In this document: positions 11,066 to 40,854 of the stretch, piece after piece
Position numbering within the stretch: position 1 is the stretch's first letter
How the letters are laid out: each line of letters begins with the position of its first letter
Source: Sedimenticola sp.
GTDB lineage: Bacteria > Pseudomonadota > Gammaproteobacteria > Chromatiales > Chromatiaceae
DNA length: 64,000 nt
Direction of reading: 5' to 3'
Assembly (NCBI GenBank): GCA_002869585.1
Contig: PKUO01000002.1
Location: 128,556 to 192,555 of the forward strand
The notes under the pieces: generated by a model
Seen by the model: only the letters and a program-made list of their open reading frames with translations
What the model was told of the DNA's origin: nothing
The model's database searches: none
Program-made: the position numbers and the translations under genes

Positions 11066-12262
11066 TCAGTGGTTGTTCCAGGCCTTTTTGGCCTGGGTGA
11101 TCGCCAGGGATCTGGCGTGCTCGATTTTTTTCCTGATGGCATTGCCATCCAGTGAGGGATCGATCAGGGAGCCTGGATCGACTCCAGAGGCGGCCTGATA
11201 GATCTGGCGCAAATAGGCTGCCTGGGGGTAGGGAGCCTGTTCGAAACCCGTTCGGCCCTGCATGTCGGCCTGGCAGGCGATTAAGAAATCCTCCAGCCGC
11301 TGTGGCCGCCTGAAGCAGTCGAGGGCGTTGAGCAGTTTCAGCAGCGTGCCGGGTTTAAGCTCCTCGGCACGATGGCTGTGAGTGTGGTATTCGCAGACCA
11401 GCCTGGCGAGGGTGTGATAGGGGTTGGGGATTTTCAGACGCTTGCAGAGTCTGTCCACAAGCTTCACCCCGCGTGCCTCGTGGGCAGTATGCCTTGGCCA
11501 CTGATCGGGTGGGGTGGTGCCCTTGCCCAGATCGTGAACCAGCGCGGCAAAGCGGACAGCCGGGTCGGTGCTGAGTGCGCAGGCGCGGTCAAGCACCATC
11601 AGCACATGGATGCCGGTATCGATCTCCGGGTGGTATTTTTCCGGCTGGGGTACGCCGAACAGCCTTTCCACTTCAGGCAGGATGACCCCGAGTGCGTTTA
11701 GTTCCCGCAGCGCCTGGAAAAAACGGCTGGGTCTGTCGCCTTCCAGGGCGCGCTGGATCTCGCCCCAGGCCCGCTCCGGGACCAGTCCGTCCAGAAGGCC
11801 GTGGGCGATCTGCCGCTGGACGGCATCGATGGTCTCCTGGGCGATGGTGAAACCCAGCCTGGCATAGCGTGCCGCGAACCGGGCAAGACGCAGGGTGCGG
11901 ATCGGGTCATCGAAAAACGCCGGGGTATGGCGCAGCAGCCGCTTCTCCAGGTCGCTGCGGCCGTTCAGTGGATCGATCAGGCGCTTGTTCTGGTTGAGGG
12001 CCATGGCGTTGATGGTCAGGTCGCGATGGAGCAGGTCCTGGATAACCTGCTACGCCTCGGGCAGGTTCTTGCCCGCCCGGGGAAGGGCATGCTCTTCTTT
12101 CGTCACCGGGTCGAGAAATACCGGAAAATCGCGCCCTACCTGCTGGTAGCCCAGCGCGGCCAGTCGCTCAGGCGTGCTATCGGTTACCAGCCAGTCACGA
12201 TCGGTGACCGGCAGCCCGAGGAGTTGATCGCGGACCGCGCCGCCCACCAGATATTTTTTCAT
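11066..12262 (-). pseudogene. cca: tRNA nucleotidyltransferase (CCA-adding), interrupted
   Basis: The sequence matches class II CCA-adding enzymes with a C-terminal HD domain. It begins [18 protein letters not shown] with the DRDW metal-binding motif and has HRDLTINAMAL, FRxxxxARYARLGF-like helices, HDLGKGTTPPDQWPRH and RGRTGFEQAPYPQ. An in-frame TAG at 12050-12052 splits it after residue 70 and the frame continues unchanged beyond it. Compared with E. coli Cca, the stretch between EEHAL and HRDLTINA is about 11 residues short and the TERK/GYxGF segment is missing. The downstream 312-codon piece has no convincing start of its own. Loss of function or a local assembly error are both possible; read-through is unlikely. 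Confidence 0.85.
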
Positions 12263-15230: not shown

Positions 15231-15788
15231 CTATGGGCCCAACCGTATGAATAGTAACAGATTGCCGCTTTCATCCTGGAGCGCCAGACGGTATTCCTGT
15301 TCGGCATATTCGTACTGCTTGGCCGCGCCGCTGGCAGGGTCCTGAATGATCAGCGTGTGTTCGCTGGCGATGCTTAGGTATCCCTCGTGGAAGTTGTCCC
15401 GGTCACGGTAGATACGAAAACGGTTTTGCCGGATCACCAGGATTTCACCGGTGTTGCTTTGCCACTGGCCATTCAGCGGGTTGCTCCACTGTTGCTGGCC
15501 ATAGGGCATTCCACCATAAGGGGCGGTGTAAGGCGGTGTGTAGGGCTGCATGCCTGGGGATGGATAGCCGCCGGGGTTGAAGCCTGGTTGATACATCGGT
15601 GCCGGGTTGGGCTCGGGGTTGTACTCCTTCTTTTTCTTCTGAAAGGCGGAGGCAAAGGCGTCCATCATGTCAAACAGGCTGTCGGCAATATTGCTGTACT
15701 TGTTCGGATAGCCAAAGTTGGCCTCGGCGGTGGAGACGGCTGGCAACAGCAGAAATATGCTCAGCAGGGTGGATAACAGCGTTTTCAC
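15231..15788 (-). CDS. secreted hypothetical protein with Pro/Gly/Tyr-rich linker
   Basis: I do not recognise this 185-aa protein. It starts with a clear signal peptide (MKTLLSTLLSIFLLLP, probable cleavage after STAEA). A charged segment with KKKKE follows near residue 52, then a low-complexity stretch rich in Pro, Gly, Tyr and Met (residues 60-105). The C-terminal part is predicted beta-rich (GQWQSNTGEILVI and RIYRDRDNFHEGYL) and resembles a small lipocalin-like or SH3-like fold. It is convergent with the TauE-family gene by 12 bp. Probably periplasmic or surface located. Confidence 0.7.
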   Translation of the reverse strand: MKTLLSTLLSIFLLLPAVSTAEANFGYPNKYSNIADSLFDMMDAFASAFQKKKKEYNPEPNPAPMYQPGFNPGGYPSPGMQPYTPPYTAPYGGMPYGQQQWSNPLNGQWQSNTGEILVIRQNRFRIYRDRDNFHEGYLSIASEHTLIIQDPASGAAKQYEYAEQEYRLALQDESGNLLLFIRLGP

Positions 15789-15984
15789 TTTACCTGAACG
15801 ACCTCTGTATTCGATTTTATGGCAAGTTTGGGATCAGACGGGGCTAGTTTCAAGTCTAGGCCATGAAAAACTTGCCTGTTGTTACAGTTGATGGTTATCT
15901 ATGCACAGAAGAAGAGAAAATGCACGATTGGCGCGATTTTTTGCGCTGTGCAGCATAAAACTATAAATATTCAGGTTTTCAGCT

Positions 15985-16428
15985 ATGACGACGGTATCAG
16001 AGACTGTGGAAAGACGAACCCGCACCCAGGACATGGTGGATAAATGGATGGCCGAGCGCCAGCAGATGCTAGTCCTCTTCTGTCGGTTGGCTGGCCTCGA
16101 ACCCTACACGCCGGATAAGCCGGTGAAAGAGCAGCTCAAGGATTTCTGCGAGGTACTGGTCGACTATACCGCGTTCGGTCATTTCGAGGTCTACGACCGC
16201 ATCTCAAGGGGTGAGGAGCGACGCTCCGATGTACTCCAGGTGGCAGAGGAGGTCTATCCCAAGGTGGCCGAGGTCGCGGATGTGGTCATTGCCTTCAACG
16301 ACAAGTATGACAGTTCCGATCATAACCAGCCGCTTGATCAACTGCACCAGGACCTCTCCACCCTGGGTGAGAACCTTGCATTGAGAATCGAGATGGAAGA
16401 CCGGATTGTGTCAAGCCTGATCGCCTGA
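15985..16428 (+). CDS. rsd: Rsd/AlgQ anti-sigma-70 factor
   Basis: Rsd binds region 4 of RpoD and reduces the pool of sigma-70 holoenzyme in stationary phase, favouring alternative sigma factors. The 147-aa product is all helical and matches the family: RRTRTQDMVDKWMAERQQML near residue 10, LVDYTAFGHFEVYDRI near residue 57, and a C-terminal helix ending in EMEDRIV. The start ATG has AGGT 9 nt upstream. A possible promoter (TTGCGC, 15 nt, TATAAA at 15941-15967) is close to the start but its spacing is short. Its target, RpoD, is encoded in the same window. Confidence 0.9.
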   Translation: MTTVSETVERRTRTQDMVDKWMAERQQMLVLFCRLAGLEPYTPDKPVKEQLKDFCEVLVDYTAFGHFEVYDRISRGEERRSDVLQVAEEVYPKVAEVADVVIAFNDKYDSSDHNQPLDQLHQDLSTLGENLALRIEMEDRIVSSLIA

Positions 16429-16555
16429 TGCCGCCCGCCTGTTAACCAGGCAGAGTGTGAAACAGATTGCGGCAGACCCAGGGCTGTCCGTCTAGTATTT
16501 GAACTACCCAATAAACTTTACGGTCCATATTCGGCTAAGCCTTGTGTAAAGGGGA

Positions 16556-19021
16556 ATGAGTGCAGTGGGATCGATGCTGAAAAACTTGTTTGCCTGGAAA
16601 CCGGACCTTCAGCAGTTCGTAGATCCTCTGCATGTCAGCTCTGCCAGTCAGCTTGAATTCGGGCTGTTCAAAAAAGGCATCGATAACATTCACATCGATG
16701 TTCTGTTAAGCGCCGAGTTCAGGAACAGATCACAGATCCTGGTGCGCAAGATGCTGCTCCACAACGTGGCGGAAAACTACTGGGGTGAGCCGCCGCCACC
16801 GCCGGACAGCAAGGATGTTCAGGCGATGAAGGACAGCTATGCCGGGATCATGGAGATGGCGGTTGCCAACGCCAGCCAGAAGAGTCAACCCGAGCTGATT
16901 CAACTGCTGCAGCTATCGGTGGTGAAGTTTTTTTTGCAGTTGATCGACCGGGAGTTCACCCGGCTGCGTGAGCAGTTGCGCGGCGCAAAGGGTAAGGAGA
17001 GTCACGACTCGACCGGGAAGTCGGTGGAGGCCCATGACCGGCTGGTCATTCTCGCCAAGAATGAACCCGGCATCCGCTATAAGATCACCCGCAAACTGTT
17101 CCGCGAGATACTCTGGGTGGAGCGAACGCGCACCACCAAGCTGCGCAAATCGGTGTTGGGCGCCTCCTGGCAACTGCCCAAACAGCTCCTGTTCAACCCG
17201 ATGCTGCAGTTGCCCTCTCTCTGGGCGGACGCCGAGCTGATGAATCACTACACCCTGGTCTGCACCGCGAAGGACAACCAGGAGGTGTTCACCCAGGTGA
17301 ATCAGATTGTCATCGGGCTGTTTGCCGACTATCTGCCCAGCTGGTGCCAGCCCTTGCAGGATAATCCCCCTCCCCAGCCCAGTGATCTGCGGGATCTCGA
17401 CTCGACGACGATTTTTACCGAAGGCCTCACCCATGGCAGCGCGCTGGGCTTCAACCAGATCAGGCGTATGCTGGGCAACGCCCTGCAACAGGATGAGTAT
17501 CAGCAGGGGTTGATTTCCTGGCTGGACTCGCCCCAGAACATCGACCGTATCATCTATTCTATTCAGCCGCGCAGGCGCTGGAGTTTTGAGGGGAGTGACA
17601 ATATCTACACCTCCTCATGGGTGAGTGAGAAATGGCCGCGTTATTACCATCGCCTGTTGAAACAGATATTCAAGGCTTGCCGGGCCAGCAGGCTCGAGGC
17701 GGATATTCTGGCCTGCCAGGCGGCGCCGGGGGTCTACAAAGAGCTGCGCGAGCAGTTGCCGGTGCGCCTGATTTGCCAATACCTTGCCGGGCAGCTGAAG
17801 CGCAAGGACCTGCAACGCCGGTTGACCAGTTCCTCGGCGACCATACCCCATCAGCACATTCTCAAGATTCTCGATCAGAGTGTTGCCAGCCTAAACACCA
17901 TGCCGAGGCCGCGGCGCAGAAAACATCTGCTCGGTTTCCTGCATCAGTTCGCGCAATTTCGCCGGGATCTGAAACTGGCCTATCGCACCCACTTGGCAAT
18001 GAATCGAATCCGCTTGCTGGAGCGAAACGCAGAGGCCGACCTGTCGCGAAATAACGGGACACTGCATGAGTTTGTGCTGCGCAACGAACTACAACGCAAG
18101 CAGCATCAGATTCGCAATCACGTGATTCTCAAGGCGGATGTGCGTGGTTCGACCGAAATGACCAGTCTGCTCAAGCAGCGGGGGTTGAATCCGGCCACCC
18201 ACTTCAGCCTCAATTTCTTTGAGCCGATCAACGATCTGTTGCCGGTGTTCGGCGCCAAGAAGGTATTCGTCGAGGGCGATGCGGTTATTCTCAGCGTTTA
18301 TGAATACGAGGACACCCCCTTTCAATGGCTGTGCGTGGCCCACGCCTGTGGGCTGGCGAAGAACATCCTGCAGGTGGTCGATGCGCAGAATATCAAGAAC
18401 CGGAAATTCGGCCTGCCGAATCTGGAACTGGGTCTGGGCATCGCGTTTAACGATCAGTCGCCGGCCTTTCTTTACGACGAGGAGAGAGAGATCATGATCT
18501 CCCCGGCGATCAATCGCGCCGATCAACTCTCTTCCTGTTCGGCGATGCTCAAGCGCTCCAGCTTTGCCGCGAAACAGACCCGGGGTCTGGAGGTCTTCTC
18601 CCTTGATCCGGGAGAAGTGCATGACAAGGAGAGCGGCGACCGGCTGGTCAGGTACAACGTCAACGGTATCGAGCTGGATATCGGCGCCTTCTATAAATTG
18701 AAGTCGGAAGTGAGACTGAAAAAGATCGATACCCGTGGCGCACCCTATGCGAGCAGAGAGAGTAACTGGTACGCAGGACGCTATCCCGACATGCAGGGGC
18801 GAATGCACTGGTTGATCATCCGCGAGGCGATGGTCAAGGAGTGGCGCGAGGGCGCCCCGGTGGGCATTGATCAGGCCAGACGCTTCTACCAGGTGGTCAC
18901 GGATGAGGAGCTGATCCGGGATGTCAGAAGCCGTGCCGGAAGCAGTCGCAGCAAGCCGGTGCTACTTGATGATGAACCCGAGGCGAGCGAACAGGCTATA
19001 AAGCCTTTTTATTTTCACTGA
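16556..19021 (+). CDS. large orphan protein with class III nucleotidyl cyclase-like domain
   Basis: An 821-aa soluble protein. Residues about 1-515 are mainly helical and match nothing I recognise. Residues about 520-690 resemble a class III cyclase catalytic fold: ADVRGSTEMT holds the first metal Asp, VEGDAVIL the second, and GLGIAF followed by ISPAINRADQLSS corresponds to the strand and N-x3-R segment. The usual adenine-specifying Lys/Asp pair is not clear. A basic, variable C-terminus follows. There is no signal peptide or membrane helix. The ATG at 16556 is close to GGGG; an ATG at 16574 is possible. The last 26 bp overlap convergent slt. It could make a cyclic nucleotide or be a degenerate sensor. 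Confidence 0.6.
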   Translation: MSAVGSMLKNLFAWKPDLQQFVDPLHVSSASQLEFGLFKKGIDNIHIDVLLSAEFRNRSQILVRKMLLHNVAENYWGEPPPPPDSKDVQAMKDSYAGIMEMAVANASQKSQPELIQLLQLSVVKFFLQLIDREFTRLREQLRGAKGKESHDSTGKSVEAHDRLVILAKNEPGIRYKITRKLFREILWVERTRTTKLRKSVLGASWQLPKQLLFNPMLQLPSLWADAELMNHYTLVCTAKDNQEVFTQVNQIVIGLFADYLPSWCQPLQDNPPPQPSDLRDLDSTTIFTEGLTHGSALGFNQIRRMLGNALQQDEYQQGLISWLDSPQNIDRIIYSIQPRRRWSFEGSDNIYTSSWVSEKWPRYYHRLLKQIFKACRASRLEADILACQAAPGVYKELREQLPVRLICQYLAGQLKRKDLQRRLTSSSATIPHQHILKILDQSVASLNTMPRPRRRKHLLGFLHQFAQFRRDLKLAYRTHLAMNRIRLLERNAEADLSRNNGTLHEFVLRNELQRKQHQIRNHVILKADVRGSTEMTSLLKQRGLNPATHFSLNFFEPINDLLPVFGAKKVFVEGDAVILSVYEYEDTPFQWLCVAHACGLAKNILQVVDAQNIKNRKFGLPNLELGLGIAFNDQSPAFLYDEEREIMISPAINRADQLSSCSAMLKRSSFAAKQTRGLEVFSLDPGEVHDKESGDRLVRYNVNGIELDIGAFYKLKSEVRLKKIDTRGAPYASRESNWYAGRYPDMQGRMHWLIIREAMVKEWREGAPVGIDQARRFYQVVTDEELIRDVRSRAGSSRSKPVLLDDEPEASEQAIKPFYFH

Positions 19022-20987
19022 CCCTGGCGGTGGTGATCTTTTTCGGCAGTACCGGAGACATACGCAGGTTGAGCCGGGTCGGCGTCTTCCCCAGGCGTTG
19101 CTCATAGATCACTGCATAGCTCATCACCCGTTCGGTGTACTTGCGAGTCTCGTTGAAGGGGATGCTCTCCACCCAGCGGTCAGCGGACAGCTGCTGTTCG
19201 GGCAGCCAGGATTTCACCCGGTGCGGCCCGGCGTTATAGGCCGCGGTGGCAAGTACTTGATGATCACCCAGCTGATCCAGCACCTGGCGCAGATAGGCAG
19301 TGCCGAGGTTGATGTTGACCCGGGGCTTCAGCAGGTCTTTTTTAACCGGGCGCTTGTGTTTCAGGCGCTTGGCGACCGATTTGGCGGTGTTCGGCATCAG
19401 TTGCATCAAACCCAGGGCGCCGGCATGGGACTGGGCGTCATGACTGAAAGCGCTCTCCTGTCGGATCACGGCGAATACCCAGGCGTTGTCCAGTTGGCGA
19501 TTATTGGCGTGGCGGTCAACCTGCGCCTGGTGCCTGACCGGGAAGCGCAGTTCCAGATCCTCCCAGTAGTTTGTCTTTGCCAGGGTGAAAATCGCCTGAT
19601 CGTGCCAGTTCCAGGACTGGGCGATCTTCGCGGCCGCCTGCAACTGCTCATCACTCATTGGGCGGGTTGCCCGGTACCATTCGCGCCTGGCATCGAAGTA
19701 GCGGTCCAGGGCGATCAGCTCGCCAGCCCGTTGCAGTGCGGGTAGTGCGCTGGTAGAGGTCAGCAGTTGAGCGGATACCTGGAGGGGGGTGTCGTTCAGA
19801 TTGTAGTCGAGGCCGAGCCGGTCTGCGGCGAGAAAGCCGTGGTAACTGCGCTCCTTGGCCAGGTGTTGCAGAATTTCCTTAGACTCATCCTTTTGGCCCT
19901 GGGTGGCAAGGGCGTGGGCCTGCCAATAGCGCCAGCGCTCCTCGTTCCTGATCTCCGCCGGGCTGTTCTCTAACCAGCCAAGCAACGCTGGCCAGTCGCC
20001 TTCGGTCACTGCGAAGCGCAGGCGTCTCTCTATGAAGCTGAGATCCTTCGGATCGGGGGTGAAGGCGGCCAGTCGGCTGGCCGCCAGGGGGTGATCGGCA
20101 TACAGCAGTCTGAGCGCCAGGTAACGCTCCACCTGATAGCGTTGCTGCTCGGAAAACCAGGTCTTACCCTTCTGTTTTTTCCAGATGGCCAGGGCCTGTT
20201 CGATATCGCTGCGTGCCAGACGCTTCAGGCCATGGATCCATATTTTCCGGCTGTCAACGGGCTTATCCGCGCTTTTTTTCTGGTTCAGCGAGACGGCGGG
20301 TTGGTTGTGAATCTTGATCCAGTATTCATACCACTGTTTGTTTTTCGTATTCAGAAAGCGGCTCAGATAGCGGGCAAGGGAGAGATTGCCGGCTTCCATG
20401 GCCAGTTCCAGGCGCTGCCAGGTGAGCGTTTGGGTCAGCTTCCCCGCCTGCCGCCAGGCATCGAACACCGGGTCGCAGGCGTCCGGTTGCGATTTGCCGG
20501 TCAGCCAGAGTGCAGGTGCTGCGTCGAATGCCTGTTGCCGTTCGCCGGTCTCGATCAAGGCCTGCAGGTAGTGGCACTTGAGCTTGCTGCTGCTCCTGGG
20601 TTTATAGAAGGCGCGATAGGCCCACCACTGCTTTTTTCGCGCGAGCTCACTCAGCCATTTTGAACGGAACAGGGGCGCCAGTGGCGTATCGCTGTAGCGG
20701 GTCAGAAAATCTTCCGCCTGGCTGCTGTTCAAGCTGGAAATGTTTTCGCTGAGTTCGTCATGGATCAGGTAGGGCAGCAAGGGATAATCAGCAAGCTGCG
20801 CCTTGAGTTTGCTGTAGCCTTGTTGATCACCATCCGACAGCGCTTTCTCAGCCTCCAGAAAGCGTTGCCGCTGTTCATCCCGGGCGAGTGGTTGTATCGT
20901 TGGCAGGGCGGTCGTTGCAGCAAAAAAGAGCGCGCCGAAAAGCACCCATCCTGCGGCTTTTTTATTGAGGTATCCGTTGATATTCAC
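18996..20987 (-). CDS. slt: soluble lytic murein transglycosylase (Slt70 family)
   Basis: A 663-aa periplasmic enzyme that cleaves peptidoglycan glycan strands to 1,6-anhydro-muropeptides. The N-terminal signal segment (GWVLFGALFFAATTALP) is followed by a long alpha-helical U-domain of repeats. The C-terminal catalytic domain, from about residue 500, has VIRQESAF with the catalytic Glu, then SHAGALGLMQLMPNTA and TAAYNAGPHRV. The length is close to E. coli Slt70 (about 645). The start is a GTG with no clear ribosome-binding site; it could be a few codons further in. It runs convergent to the 821-aa gene with a 26-bp overlap. Confidence 0.93.
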   Translation of the reverse strand: MNINGYLNKKAAGWVLFGALFFAATTALPTIQPLARDEQRQRFLEAEKALSDGDQQGYSKLKAQLADYPLLPYLIHDELSENISSLNSSQAEDFLTRYSDTPLAPLFRSKWLSELARKKQWWAYRAFYKPRSSSKLKCHYLQALIETGERQQAFDAAPALWLTGKSQPDACDPVFDAWRQAGKLTQTLTWQRLELAMEAGNLSLARYLSRFLNTKNKQWYEYWIKIHNQPAVSLNQKKSADKPVDSRKIWIHGLKRLARSDIEQALAIWKKQKGKTWFSEQQRYQVERYLALRLLYADHPLAASRLAAFTPDPKDLSFIERRLRFAVTEGDWPALLGWLENSPAEIRNEERWRYWQAHALATQGQKDESKEILQHLAKERSYHGFLAADRLGLDYNLNDTPLQVSAQLLTSTSALPALQRAGELIALDRYFDARREWYRATRPMSDEQLQAAAKIAQSWNWHDQAIFTLAKTNYWEDLELRFPVRHQAQVDRHANNRQLDNAWVFAVIRQESAFSHDAQSHAGALGLMQLMPNTAKSVAKRLKHKRPVKKDLLKPRVNINLGTAYLRQVLDQLGDHQVLATAAYNAGPHRVKSWLPEQQLSADRWVESIPFNETRKYTERVMSYAVIYEQRLGKTPTRLNLRMSPVLPKKITTARVSENKKAL

Positions 20988-37854: not shown

Positions 37855-39297
37855 TCAGAACAAGCCGCCGTTTAATTGTAAGTGAAGTTCGATCGCTGCG
37901 ATATATCCAAGGAGAATGAACGGTGTCCATTTCAGGTGACTGAAAAAGGTATAGATGCCCTTGGTCTGCCCCATCAGCGCAATGCCTGCCGCCGAGCCGA
38001 TCGAGAGGATACTGCCGCCAATGCCCGTGGTCAGAGTGACCAACAACCATTGACCGGAGGCCATTTCCGGCGCCATGGCCAACACGGCCGACATGGTGGG
38101 AATATTCTCCAGAAAGGATGAGACCAGTCCGATATAGACGTTCGTCGTGGTTGGGCCTAGATTGTGATACATCAGGTCCGAAGCCAGGCTCAGATAGCCC
38201 AGATATCCCAAACCGCCCACGGAAAGCAGCACACCATACAGAAACAGCAGGGTGTCCCACTCGGCGCGTGCAACCACAATGAAGATATCGAACGGCTCCT
38301 TGCCATCAACAGGCACCGGAACGGACAGTTGCTCTTCGTCGATGCCGAGGGTCTCGAGATTGCGATGGGTCTTCTTCAGGTAAAAGCCGAAGATCTGCAG
38401 ATAGGAGAGACCGGTCAGAATGCCGATCACGCCGGGCAGTCCCAGCAGACTCTGAAATATCACCGCCGTGAAAATGGTGGCGAGGAACAGGAACATCATG
38501 CGCTTGGCGCCGCGGCGCATGAAAATGAGCCGTTGCGGGACTTCGATCTGCCCTCCGGGAATGGCGAAATGCATGGCGATTGCGGGAATCAGATAACTCA
38601 CCAGCGCCGAGGGAAAGAGATGGAAAAAGGTCCAGAAATCGATCAGACCATTGGTACTGTGAATCTGCTGCTGCCAGACCATCAGCGTCGTGATGTCGCC
38701 GAAAGGACTGAATACGCCCCCTGCGTTGGAGGCCAGGATGACATTCAGACAACCCAGGGCAATAAAACGCGTATTACCCTTGCCCACGGCCATGACCACG
38801 GCCCCCATCAACAGCGCGGTTGAGAGGTTGTCCAGCACCGGCGAGAGAAAAAAGCTGGCGAAACCGGTGACCCAGAAGACATGGCGGTGGGAGTAGCCTC
38901 GGTGCCCCAGCCAGCCCTGCAGGGTTTTGAATACCTGCCGTTCCGACATGGCGTTGATGTAGGTCATCACCACCAGCATGATCATCATCAACTCTGCGTA
39001 TTGCAGAAGGTTGTGGCGTACCGCGTGTTCCGCCTCCACGCTGTTGCCGGTCTGCCCGGCCAGAACGGCGATCAGCCCCCAGATCAACCCGGCCGAGATC
39101 AGCATCGGCTTGGATTTGCGCATGCCGATAAACTCTTCCGCGATGACCGCCAACATGGCGACCACGAAGATGGCCAGGCAGAGATAACCGATCCAATGGT
39201 TTTGGATTTCCGCCGACATGCCGCTCATGTGACCTGCCGAGGCCAGAGGCGGGAAGACGATCAGCAGAAGCGCAACAAAGTTTGTTGTTTTGACCAT
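37855..39297 (-). CDS. nhaD: sodium:proton antiporter, NhaD type (copy 1)
   Basis: A 480-aa membrane antiporter of the ion-transporter superfamily. It has a signal-like first helix, then a short periplasmic segment and about eleven more helices. NhaD features include IGMRKSKPMLISAGLIWGLI near residue 72, DNLSTALLMGAVVMAVGKGNTRF, SNAGGVFSPFGDITTLMVWQ and ENIPTMSAVLAMAP. NhaD exports sodium or lithium in exchange for protons and is known from marine and halophilic bacteria. It is about equally long and clearly paralogous to the next gene. Confidence 0.92.
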   Translation of the reverse strand: MVKTTNFVALLLIVFPPLASAGHMSGMSAEIQNHWIGYLCLAIFVVAMLAVIAEEFIGMRKSKPMLISAGLIWGLIAVLAGQTGNSVEAEHAVRHNLLQYAELMMIMLVVMTYINAMSERQVFKTLQGWLGHRGYSHRHVFWVTGFASFFLSPVLDNLSTALLMGAVVMAVGKGNTRFIALGCLNVILASNAGGVFSPFGDITTLMVWQQQIHSTNGLIDFWTFFHLFPSALVSYLIPAIAMHFAIPGGQIEVPQRLIFMRRGAKRMMFLFLATIFTAVIFQSLLGLPGVIGILTGLSYLQIFGFYLKKTHRNLETLGIDEEQLSVPVPVDGKEPFDIFIVVARAEWDTLLFLYGVLLSVGGLGYLGYLSLASDLMYHNLGPTTTNVYIGLVSSFLENIPTMSAVLAMAPEMASGQWLLVTLTTGIGGSILSIGSAAGIALMGQTKGIYTFFSHLKWTPFILLGYIAAIELHLQLNGGLF

Positions 39298-39411: not shown

Positions 39412-40854
39412 CTAGAAGATCGCAGCGTTGACCCACAGATGAGCCGTGATACTGGCCGCATAACCCAGTGCGATCACCGGGGCCCATTTAAGATGCCCGA
39501 AGAAGGTGTACTTGCCACGTGCCTGACCCATCAGGGCGACACCGGCTGCAGAGCCGATCGAGAGCAGCGAGCCACCGACGCCGGCGGTCAGGGTGACCAG
39601 CAGCCATTGTCCCATGGACATGTCCGGCATCATGGTCAGTACTGCGAACATGACCGGGATATTGTCCACGATGGCCGACAGTATGCCCACCAGTATGTTG
39701 GCGTTGGTTTGACCCAGATCCACATACATCGCCTGTGATGCGAGCGCCAGATAGCCTATAAAACCCAGGCCGCCCACGCACAGAACCACGCCGTAGAAGA
39801 ACAGCAGGGTGTCCCACTCGGCCCGGGCCACCTTGTTGAATACATCGAAGGAGACGATGTCACCCATCTGTCCATCGTGCTCGACTTCGGCCTGGTCGGC
39901 GACGGATAGGTGCGGGTGATCTTTGAGATAGGTCTTCTTCAGATAGAAACCGAAAAACTGCAGATAGGCTAGGCCGGTCAACATGCCGATCACAGGAGGC
40001 ATGTGCAGAAAGTTGTGGAAACTGACCGCGGTGAAAATGGTCAGCAGGAAGAATGCGATGATGCGTTTGGCACAGCGTTTCATCTGTACCGCTTCACCTG
40101 CGCCCGAGGGCTGTTCGTTAGGCACTGCGAAATGCATCACCGCGGCGGGTACCACCCAGTTGACCACCGATGGGATGAACAGGGCGAAAAACGCCCAGAA
40201 ATTGACCGGGCCTTGCGCGGTCTGGATGTTTTTCTGCCAGACCATCAGGGTCGTGATGTCGCCAAAGGGACTGAAGGCGCCGCCGGCGTTGGCGGCCACA
40301 ACGATATTGATACAGGCCAGCAGTACAAACTTGGTGTTATCGCCCGCCACTGCCATAACCACGGCGCACATCAGCAGGGCAGTGGTCAGGTTGTCGGCAA
40401 CCGGGGAGATGAAAAAGGCCAATAGACCGGTGATCCAGAACAGCTGGCGCAGGCCGAAGCCTTTCTGTACCAGCCAGGAGCGCAATGCCTCGAAGACATT
40501 CCGTTCATCCATGGCGTTGATGTAGGTCATCGCCACCAGCAGGAACAGCATCAATTCCGCATATTCAAGCAGGTTGTGGCGTACCGCCTGTTCGGCCTCG
40601 GTGGTAAAGCCGTGGCTGTAGTAGACCCCCGCAATCATCGCCCAGATGATGCCGGCGGCGAGAATCACCGGTTTTGATTTCCTCAGGTGGGTGAACTCCT
40701 CGGCCATTACCAGCAGGTAGGCAATCGCAAAAATTCCGATACTCGCATACCCGACCCAGTGTTGGGTCAGATCAAGGCCTTCGCCCCCTGAGGCCAGCGC
40801 CAACCCTGGTGCAAGCAGCGTCAGCAGCGCAATGAACAGATAAGATTTACCCAC
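39412..40854 (-). CDS. nhaD: sodium:proton antiporter, NhaD type (copy 2)
   Basis: The second NhaD paralogue, also 480 aa. It shares the order of motifs with copy 1: HLRKSKPVILAAGIIWAMIA, DNLTTALLMCAVVMAVAGDNTKF, ANAGGAFSPFGDITTLMVWQ and DNIPVMFAVLTMMP. The two differ at many positions and in their cytoplasmic loops, so the duplication is not recent. It is upstream of copy 1 on the same strand with a 114-bp gap that contains a hairpin. The 270-bp gap before it holds no recognisable gene. Confidence 0.92.
   Translation of the reverse strand: MGKSYLFIALLTLLAPGLALASGGEGLDLTQHWVGYASIGIFAIAYLLVMAEEFTHLRKSKPVILAAGIIWAMIAGVYYSHGFTTEAEQAVRHNLLEYAELMLFLLVAMTYINAMDERNVFEALRSWLVQKGFGLRQLFWITGLLAFFISPVADNLTTALLMCAVVMAVAGDNTKFVLLACINIVVAANAGGAFSPFGDITTLMVWQKNIQTAQGPVNFWAFFALFIPSVVNWVVPAAVMHFAVPNEQPSGAGEAVQMKRCAKRIIAFFLLTIFTAVSFHNFLHMPPVIGMLTGLAYLQFFGFYLKKTYLKDHPHLSVADQAEVEHDGQMGDIVSFDVFNKVARAEWDTLLFFYGVVLCVGGLGFIGYLALASQAMYVDLGQTNANILVGILSAIVDNIPVMFAVLTMMPDMSMGQWLLVTLTAGVGGSLLSIGSAAGVALMGQARGKYTFFGHLKWAPVIALGYAASITAHLWVNAAIF

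Follow-up and report, generated by a model that had tools for sequence, protein, structure and literature searches.

A widespread family of bacterial proteins joining a predicted class III cyclase domain with altered active-site residues to a helical domain without found structural relatives

The 821-amino-acid protein described here, encoded in a 64,000-nucleotide stretch of a Sedimenticola sp. genome (hereafter the window), belongs to a family that is undescribed but widespread in bacteria and new to the profile libraries that we used. Our preferred explanation, to which we give a probability of roughly 0.48, is that it is a cytosolic nucleotide-dependent switch, in which a class III cyclase domain whose cyclisation has been altered or lost is joined to a large helical domain. 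We imagine that the cyclase domain would bind a metal-nucleotide complex, not necessarily ATP or GTP, and that in its nucleotide-bound state it would switch the helical domain; ordinary formation of cAMP or cGMP would be altered or lost in most members. In one clade, linked to rsd, the switch might also feed into sigma-70 control or share its regulation, a step that we propose more hesitantly. The gene and its two domains lie as follows.

16556 to 19021, plus strand: gene of the 821-aa protein, from the ORF translation and relatives in other genomes
16556 to 18100, plus strand: helical domain, residues 1-515, from AlphaFold2, without a match in PDB or viral structures
18104 to 18925, plus strand: class III cyclase homology domain, residues 517-790, from AlphaFold2, Foldseek, VIA and hhalign

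The reading frame starts with ATG and stays open for 821 codons. Family libraries gave no entry to it: Pfam, NCBIfam and PADLOC returned no match at E <= 1, PHROGs returned a single match at chance level (residues 644-711, E 0.067), and sequence searches of the PDB gave nothing useful. When 51 members were searched one by one, only scattered chance matches appeared, and no cyclase family was among them. Thus no characterised full-length family was found in Pfam, NCBIfam or the PDB sequences, and a literature search found no paper on the family. The nearest was PMC4886424, in which the words Rsd, sigma, Sedimenticola and Nitrospira are absent. Scans of positions 15780-19200 gave no promoter-like site and six terminator-like sites, against 2.8 expected.

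The initial annotation had noted three motifs of class III cyclases in the C-terminal half, and these are present in class III order: ADVRGST at residues 527-533, EGDAV at 573-577 and INRADQ at 652-657. The resemblance goes beyond chance. In hhalign, the cyclase parts of the 51 members aligned with 19 canonical PF00211 domains, taken from related genomes, at 96.2% (E 2.5e-9), whereas the N-terminal half, used as a control, scored 0.1%. AlphaFold2, run on the full length with the 51-row alignment, gave a model with mean pLDDT 86.5 and pTM 0.77. With this model Foldseek returned class III cyclases, the best being 1wc4 (E 5e-7), and VIA gave Z 16.4 over 173 residues for human soluble guanylate cyclase and 16.2 for Pseudomonas aeruginosa CyaB. 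Profile and predicted fold therefore agree in showing residues ~517-790 as a class III cyclase homology domain; the cyclase-like C-terminal domain proposed earlier stands, although it reaches ~790 rather than ending at 690. This part is also the better conserved of the two, with a mean column identity of 51%, compared to 39% in the N-terminal part.

Three short segments carry the putative active site.

18131 to 18139, plus strand: K526-A527-D528, a pocket lysine and the first metal aspartate, with K526 and D528 in 51/51 and 81/81 sequences
18260 to 18280, plus strand: K569-D575 (KVFVEGD), pocket residues K569, F571 and E573 and the second metal aspartate D575, from the alignment
18491 to 18526, plus strand: I646-Q657, the base-recognition isoleucine and the transition-state pair N653/Q657, from the alignments

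Conservation was counted in alignment A2, which has 51 rows: 50 from the best 80 loci and one for the window protein. K526, D528, K569, E573 and D575 are each found in all 51 members and F571 in 50, while position 646 is Ile in 49 and Val in two. The 30 loci outside A2 are mostly near relatives of the rows kept; six of them have in-frame stops or a frameshift (L043, L055, L073, L076, L091 and L095) and L044 is incomplete. All 30 were restored for a count of 81 sequences, in which the same five residues are again without exception and F571 is kept in 79. Further genomes supplied 13 members, one of them (L169) a repeat of one already in alignment A1, and all 13 have these five residues too. D528 and D575 align with the canonical pair of metal aspartates in hhalign.

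The picture at the transition-state pair is different. Positions 653 and 657 read NR in 17 members, NQ in 16 (among them the window protein, with its Asn and Gln), GR in 14, HR in three and NE in one, so that Asn/Arg is complete in 17 of the 51 and incomplete in 34. In the 19 canonical domains, Asn and Arg are each present in 19/19, and hydrophobic residues stand where the family has K526 and E573. The transition-state Asn and Arg also lined up with N653 and R/Q657 in each of four additional alignments, both forced and loose, with low scores when the second half was aligned alone (0.2% and 27.6%). The order of strands in the predicted structure makes it unsure whether N703 corresponds to the canonical phosphate-binding lysine, and we gave up that equation. 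The counts thus describe a constant metal site and a constant, new pocket beside a catalytic pair that differs between members. As judged from the alignments, a base-recognition set (K526, F571, E573 and I646) that is fixed and non-canonical, next to a varying N653/R657 pair, is, for pocket and pair, the opposite of what canonical domains show.

Could this nonetheless be an adenylyl or guanylyl cyclase of the ordinary kind, joined to a new regulatory domain? The fold and the metal site would agree with that. The base-recognition positions would not: in the canonical domains these are Lys in 17, Arg in one and Glu in one, and Thr in 15, Asp in two, Gly in one and Ser in one, whereas the family has Phe at the Lys site in 50/51 members and Ile or Val at the Thr/Asp site in 51/51. 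With PF00211 matching 0/51 members at E <= 1 as well, we regard this as the least credible of the explanations considered.

The main rival is a nucleotidyl cyclase that is active but uses a non-canonical substrate or yields a non-canonical product, under regulation by its N-terminal domain; we hold it to be possible, if less probable than the switch. Its pocket of K526, F571 and E573 would read guanine, a pyrimidine or a modified nucleotide. Neither metal aspartate varies and the pocket set is strictly fixed, as such an enzyme would have them, and 17/51 members keep both transition-state residues, but the other 34 do not. The best match of a profile of the cyclase part among PDB sequences was the guanylyl cyclase Cya2, although at E 0.087. 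DUF2652 and Pycsar proteins indicate that class III pockets do diverge (PMC4886424, PMC11224242). Against an active enzyme, a look through the commonest conserved neighbour clusters showed no cyclic-nucleotide receptor, although receptors need not adjoin. The varying Asn/Arg pair is itself no proof of lost catalysis, since Rv1900c, as stated in PMC4886424, is an active class III cyclase with His for Asn, which negates the need for Asn. Invariant metal aspartates, replaced base residues and a partial pair would thus fit either an unusual product or dead catalysis alike, the two options between which the initial annotation had wavered.

It is also conceivable, but in our view improbable, that the cyclase domain survives only as a structural relic, the helical domain being the functional part. 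The variation of the transition-state residues would be consistent with this, as would the N-terminal part's own invariant charged residues (D43, D48, E189, R197 and D324, among ten positions invariant in the 51 rows). A relic, however, would hardly be expected to keep its metal and pocket residues invariant, or to be better conserved than the domain that it accompanies.

Three known groups invite comparison. With class III cyclases (PF00211; CyaC 1wc4, CyaB 3r5g and Cya2 2w01) the family shares the predicted fold, the metal aspartates and the order of the motifs; it differs in its replaced base-recognition residues, its variable transition-state pair, its lack of a Pfam match and its fusion to a helical domain of 515 residues for which no match was found. 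DUF2652 proteins (PF10851; PMC4886424) are cytosolic and cyclase-like, with (E/Q)GDA at the second metal aspartate and variable transition-state residues, as here; EGDA is found in 51/51 members, and EGDA or QGDA in all four DUF2652 sequences that we read. They are, however, proteins of 183-385 aa and nearly all single-domain (PMC4886424), compared to 821 aa and two domains here. None of the 51 members matched the DUF2652 Pfam model at E <= 1, and hhalign of the family against four DUF2652 members (of five loci, L174 being left out) gave 5.7%. In Pycsar cyclases, according to PMC11224242, the specificity residues lie at offsets D1-2, D2-4 and D2-2 from the metal aspartates, and PycC has altered specificity residues at the same offsets as our family. 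PycC belongs to a defence system with an effector partner, whereas the gene in the window is chromosomal, has housekeeping neighbours and gave no PADLOC match.

The first ~515 residues had been said to match no known family. Folded alone by AlphaFold2, residues 1-515 gave pLDDT 89.1 and pTM 0.89, which makes the helical domain a confident prediction; searches of the PDB and of viral models brought up no structural relative of it. The best Foldseek match in the PDB had E 0.17, the best VIA match Z 5.8 (below the typical best Z that the tool quotes for unmatched models) and the best match among viral models (BFVD) E 0.083; only weak, mixed helical matches came up. The absence of a usual sensor domain, remarked on earlier, is consistent with this. 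A missing structural match, however, does not show that the predicted fold is new.

The protein had been called an orphan, which it is not. The gene is carried by 15 of 55 near genomes, the window's own counted, and the other copies are 34-67% identical. In the GTDB collection, at least 591 stretches matched by pattern and at least 521 of these encode relatives; the best 80 of the at least 521 were kept as loci for alignment and neighbourhood counts. By their titles, these 80 come from Sedimenticola, Thiodiazotropha, tubeworm symbionts, relatives of Beggiatoa, Nitrospirota and one Mariprofundaceae bacterium. Two loci from MAGs titled Candidatus Polarisedimenticolaceae (Acidobacteriota; L039 and L069) nest within the gammaproteobacterial group and likewise have rsd beside the gene, through mislabelling, mixed bins or transfer. 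Within the class the gene is patchy, since an even draw found it in 10/229 genomes; one weak match to the full profile in that draw (E 2.3e-6) proved on inspection to be an ordinary cyclase. In a draw of 299 genomes from the phylum, eight matched the N-terminal profile, and 8/8 scored at least 287 bits with the cyclase-part profile as well, whereas all other matches to the latter stayed at 27 bits or fewer. The helical domain was found with the cyclase domain in every member examined. A tree of the 51 members has a 100/100 split between a group of 14 with G653 (Nitrospirota, Thiotrichaceae and three gammaproteobacterial MAGs) and the other 37 members, the window protein among them. We set aside a mobile or viral reading: a plasmid search gave no match to the gene, 35 pattern matches in viral contigs included no confirmed relative, and PADLOC had no match. 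Taken as a whole, the earlier interpretation is thus partly supported.

The direct neighbours of the gene are rsd and slt.

15985 to 16428, plus strand: rsd (Rsd/AlgQ, anti-sigma-70), directly upstream, PF04353 at E 2.9e-42
18996 to 20987, minus strand: slt lytic transglycosylase, convergent, PF01464

The 3' ends of slt and of the window gene overlap by 26 bases, and slt-related ORFs occur in 49 of 81 neighbourhoods (the best 80 loci and the window). In seven Nitrospirota loci (L070, L075, L076, L078, L082, L087 and L090), the upstream gene is, by our own reading of the sequences, presumably mltG-like and the downstream gene phosphopentomutase-like. A lytic transglycosylase would thus be a neighbour in both groups, mltG-like in Nitrospirota and convergent slt in gammaproteobacteria.

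Of the best 80 loci, 76 were testable, and in 54 of these rsd is the immediate upstream neighbour, read from the same strand; L029, L040, L052 and L085, where rsd was not seen in an upstream stretch shorter than 1200 bases, were left out. The association follows the residue at 653: rsd adjoins the gene in 54/58 testable loci with N or H there, the clade of the window protein, compared to 0/18 with G or S, the other clade. The gap between the two genes is 60 bases or fewer in 22 of the 54 loci, and 127 in the window. Across 34 genomes of the window's own family, 13 have both genes, one the window gene alone, two rsd alone and 18 neither (Fisher p 1.4e-6, uncorrected for kinship). As a general property of the protein family we rejected the tie to rsd, because in class-level members rsd is on a different contig or ~500 kb distant (G065, G088, G117, G240 and G243), or did not turn up when searched for (G048, G120, G179 and G209). 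Certainly, the link may be inherited gene order alone, given that rsd occurs in 99/229 class genomes, mostly without the window gene, and that the block of epimerase, TauE, small protein, rsd, window gene and slt has in places lost either partner. A link of the window gene to growth control is nevertheless a plausible inference, because the anti-sigma-70 factor Rsd of E. coli also stimulates hydrolysis by SpoT (PMC6917717).

The unusual active site and the unmatched helical domain together mean that the protein may sense or make a new nucleotide signal. One can envision a bolder form of this, in which a novel nucleotide signal would be made or sensed through K526/F571/E573 and, in the rsd-linked clade, a helical domain of new fold would relay it to the transcription machinery by way of Rsd and sigma-70; we regard it as a long shot, though one with somewhat better odds than a purely structural relic.

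Elsewhere in the window, a gene on the minus strand from 11066 to ~12260, which by PF12627/PF01966 we take to be a cca-like tRNA nucleotidyltransferase, has one in-frame TAG at 12050-12052; its relatives in 17 other loci have no stop at that site. Divergent from rsd, at 15231-15788 on the minus strand, lies a gene for a 185-aa secreted-looking protein without a Pfam match, whose ORF cluster recurs in 55 of the 81 neighbourhoods (the best 80 loci and the window). Two similar 480-aa membrane proteins, which we assume to resemble sodium/proton antiporters, are encoded in tandem on the minus strand (37855-39297 and 39412-40854). An Rfam search had as its sole match a tRNA at 27-100.

Our findings add a cytosolic architecture to the class III cyclases, present in Gammaproteobacteria, Nitrospirota and a Mariprofundaceae MAG and missed by the profile libraries used. 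The family supplies a 515-residue domain with a confident model, for which structural relatives were not found. Its natural N/G and R/Q variants would offer a means of separating the class III residues needed for catalysis from those needed for ligand sensing.
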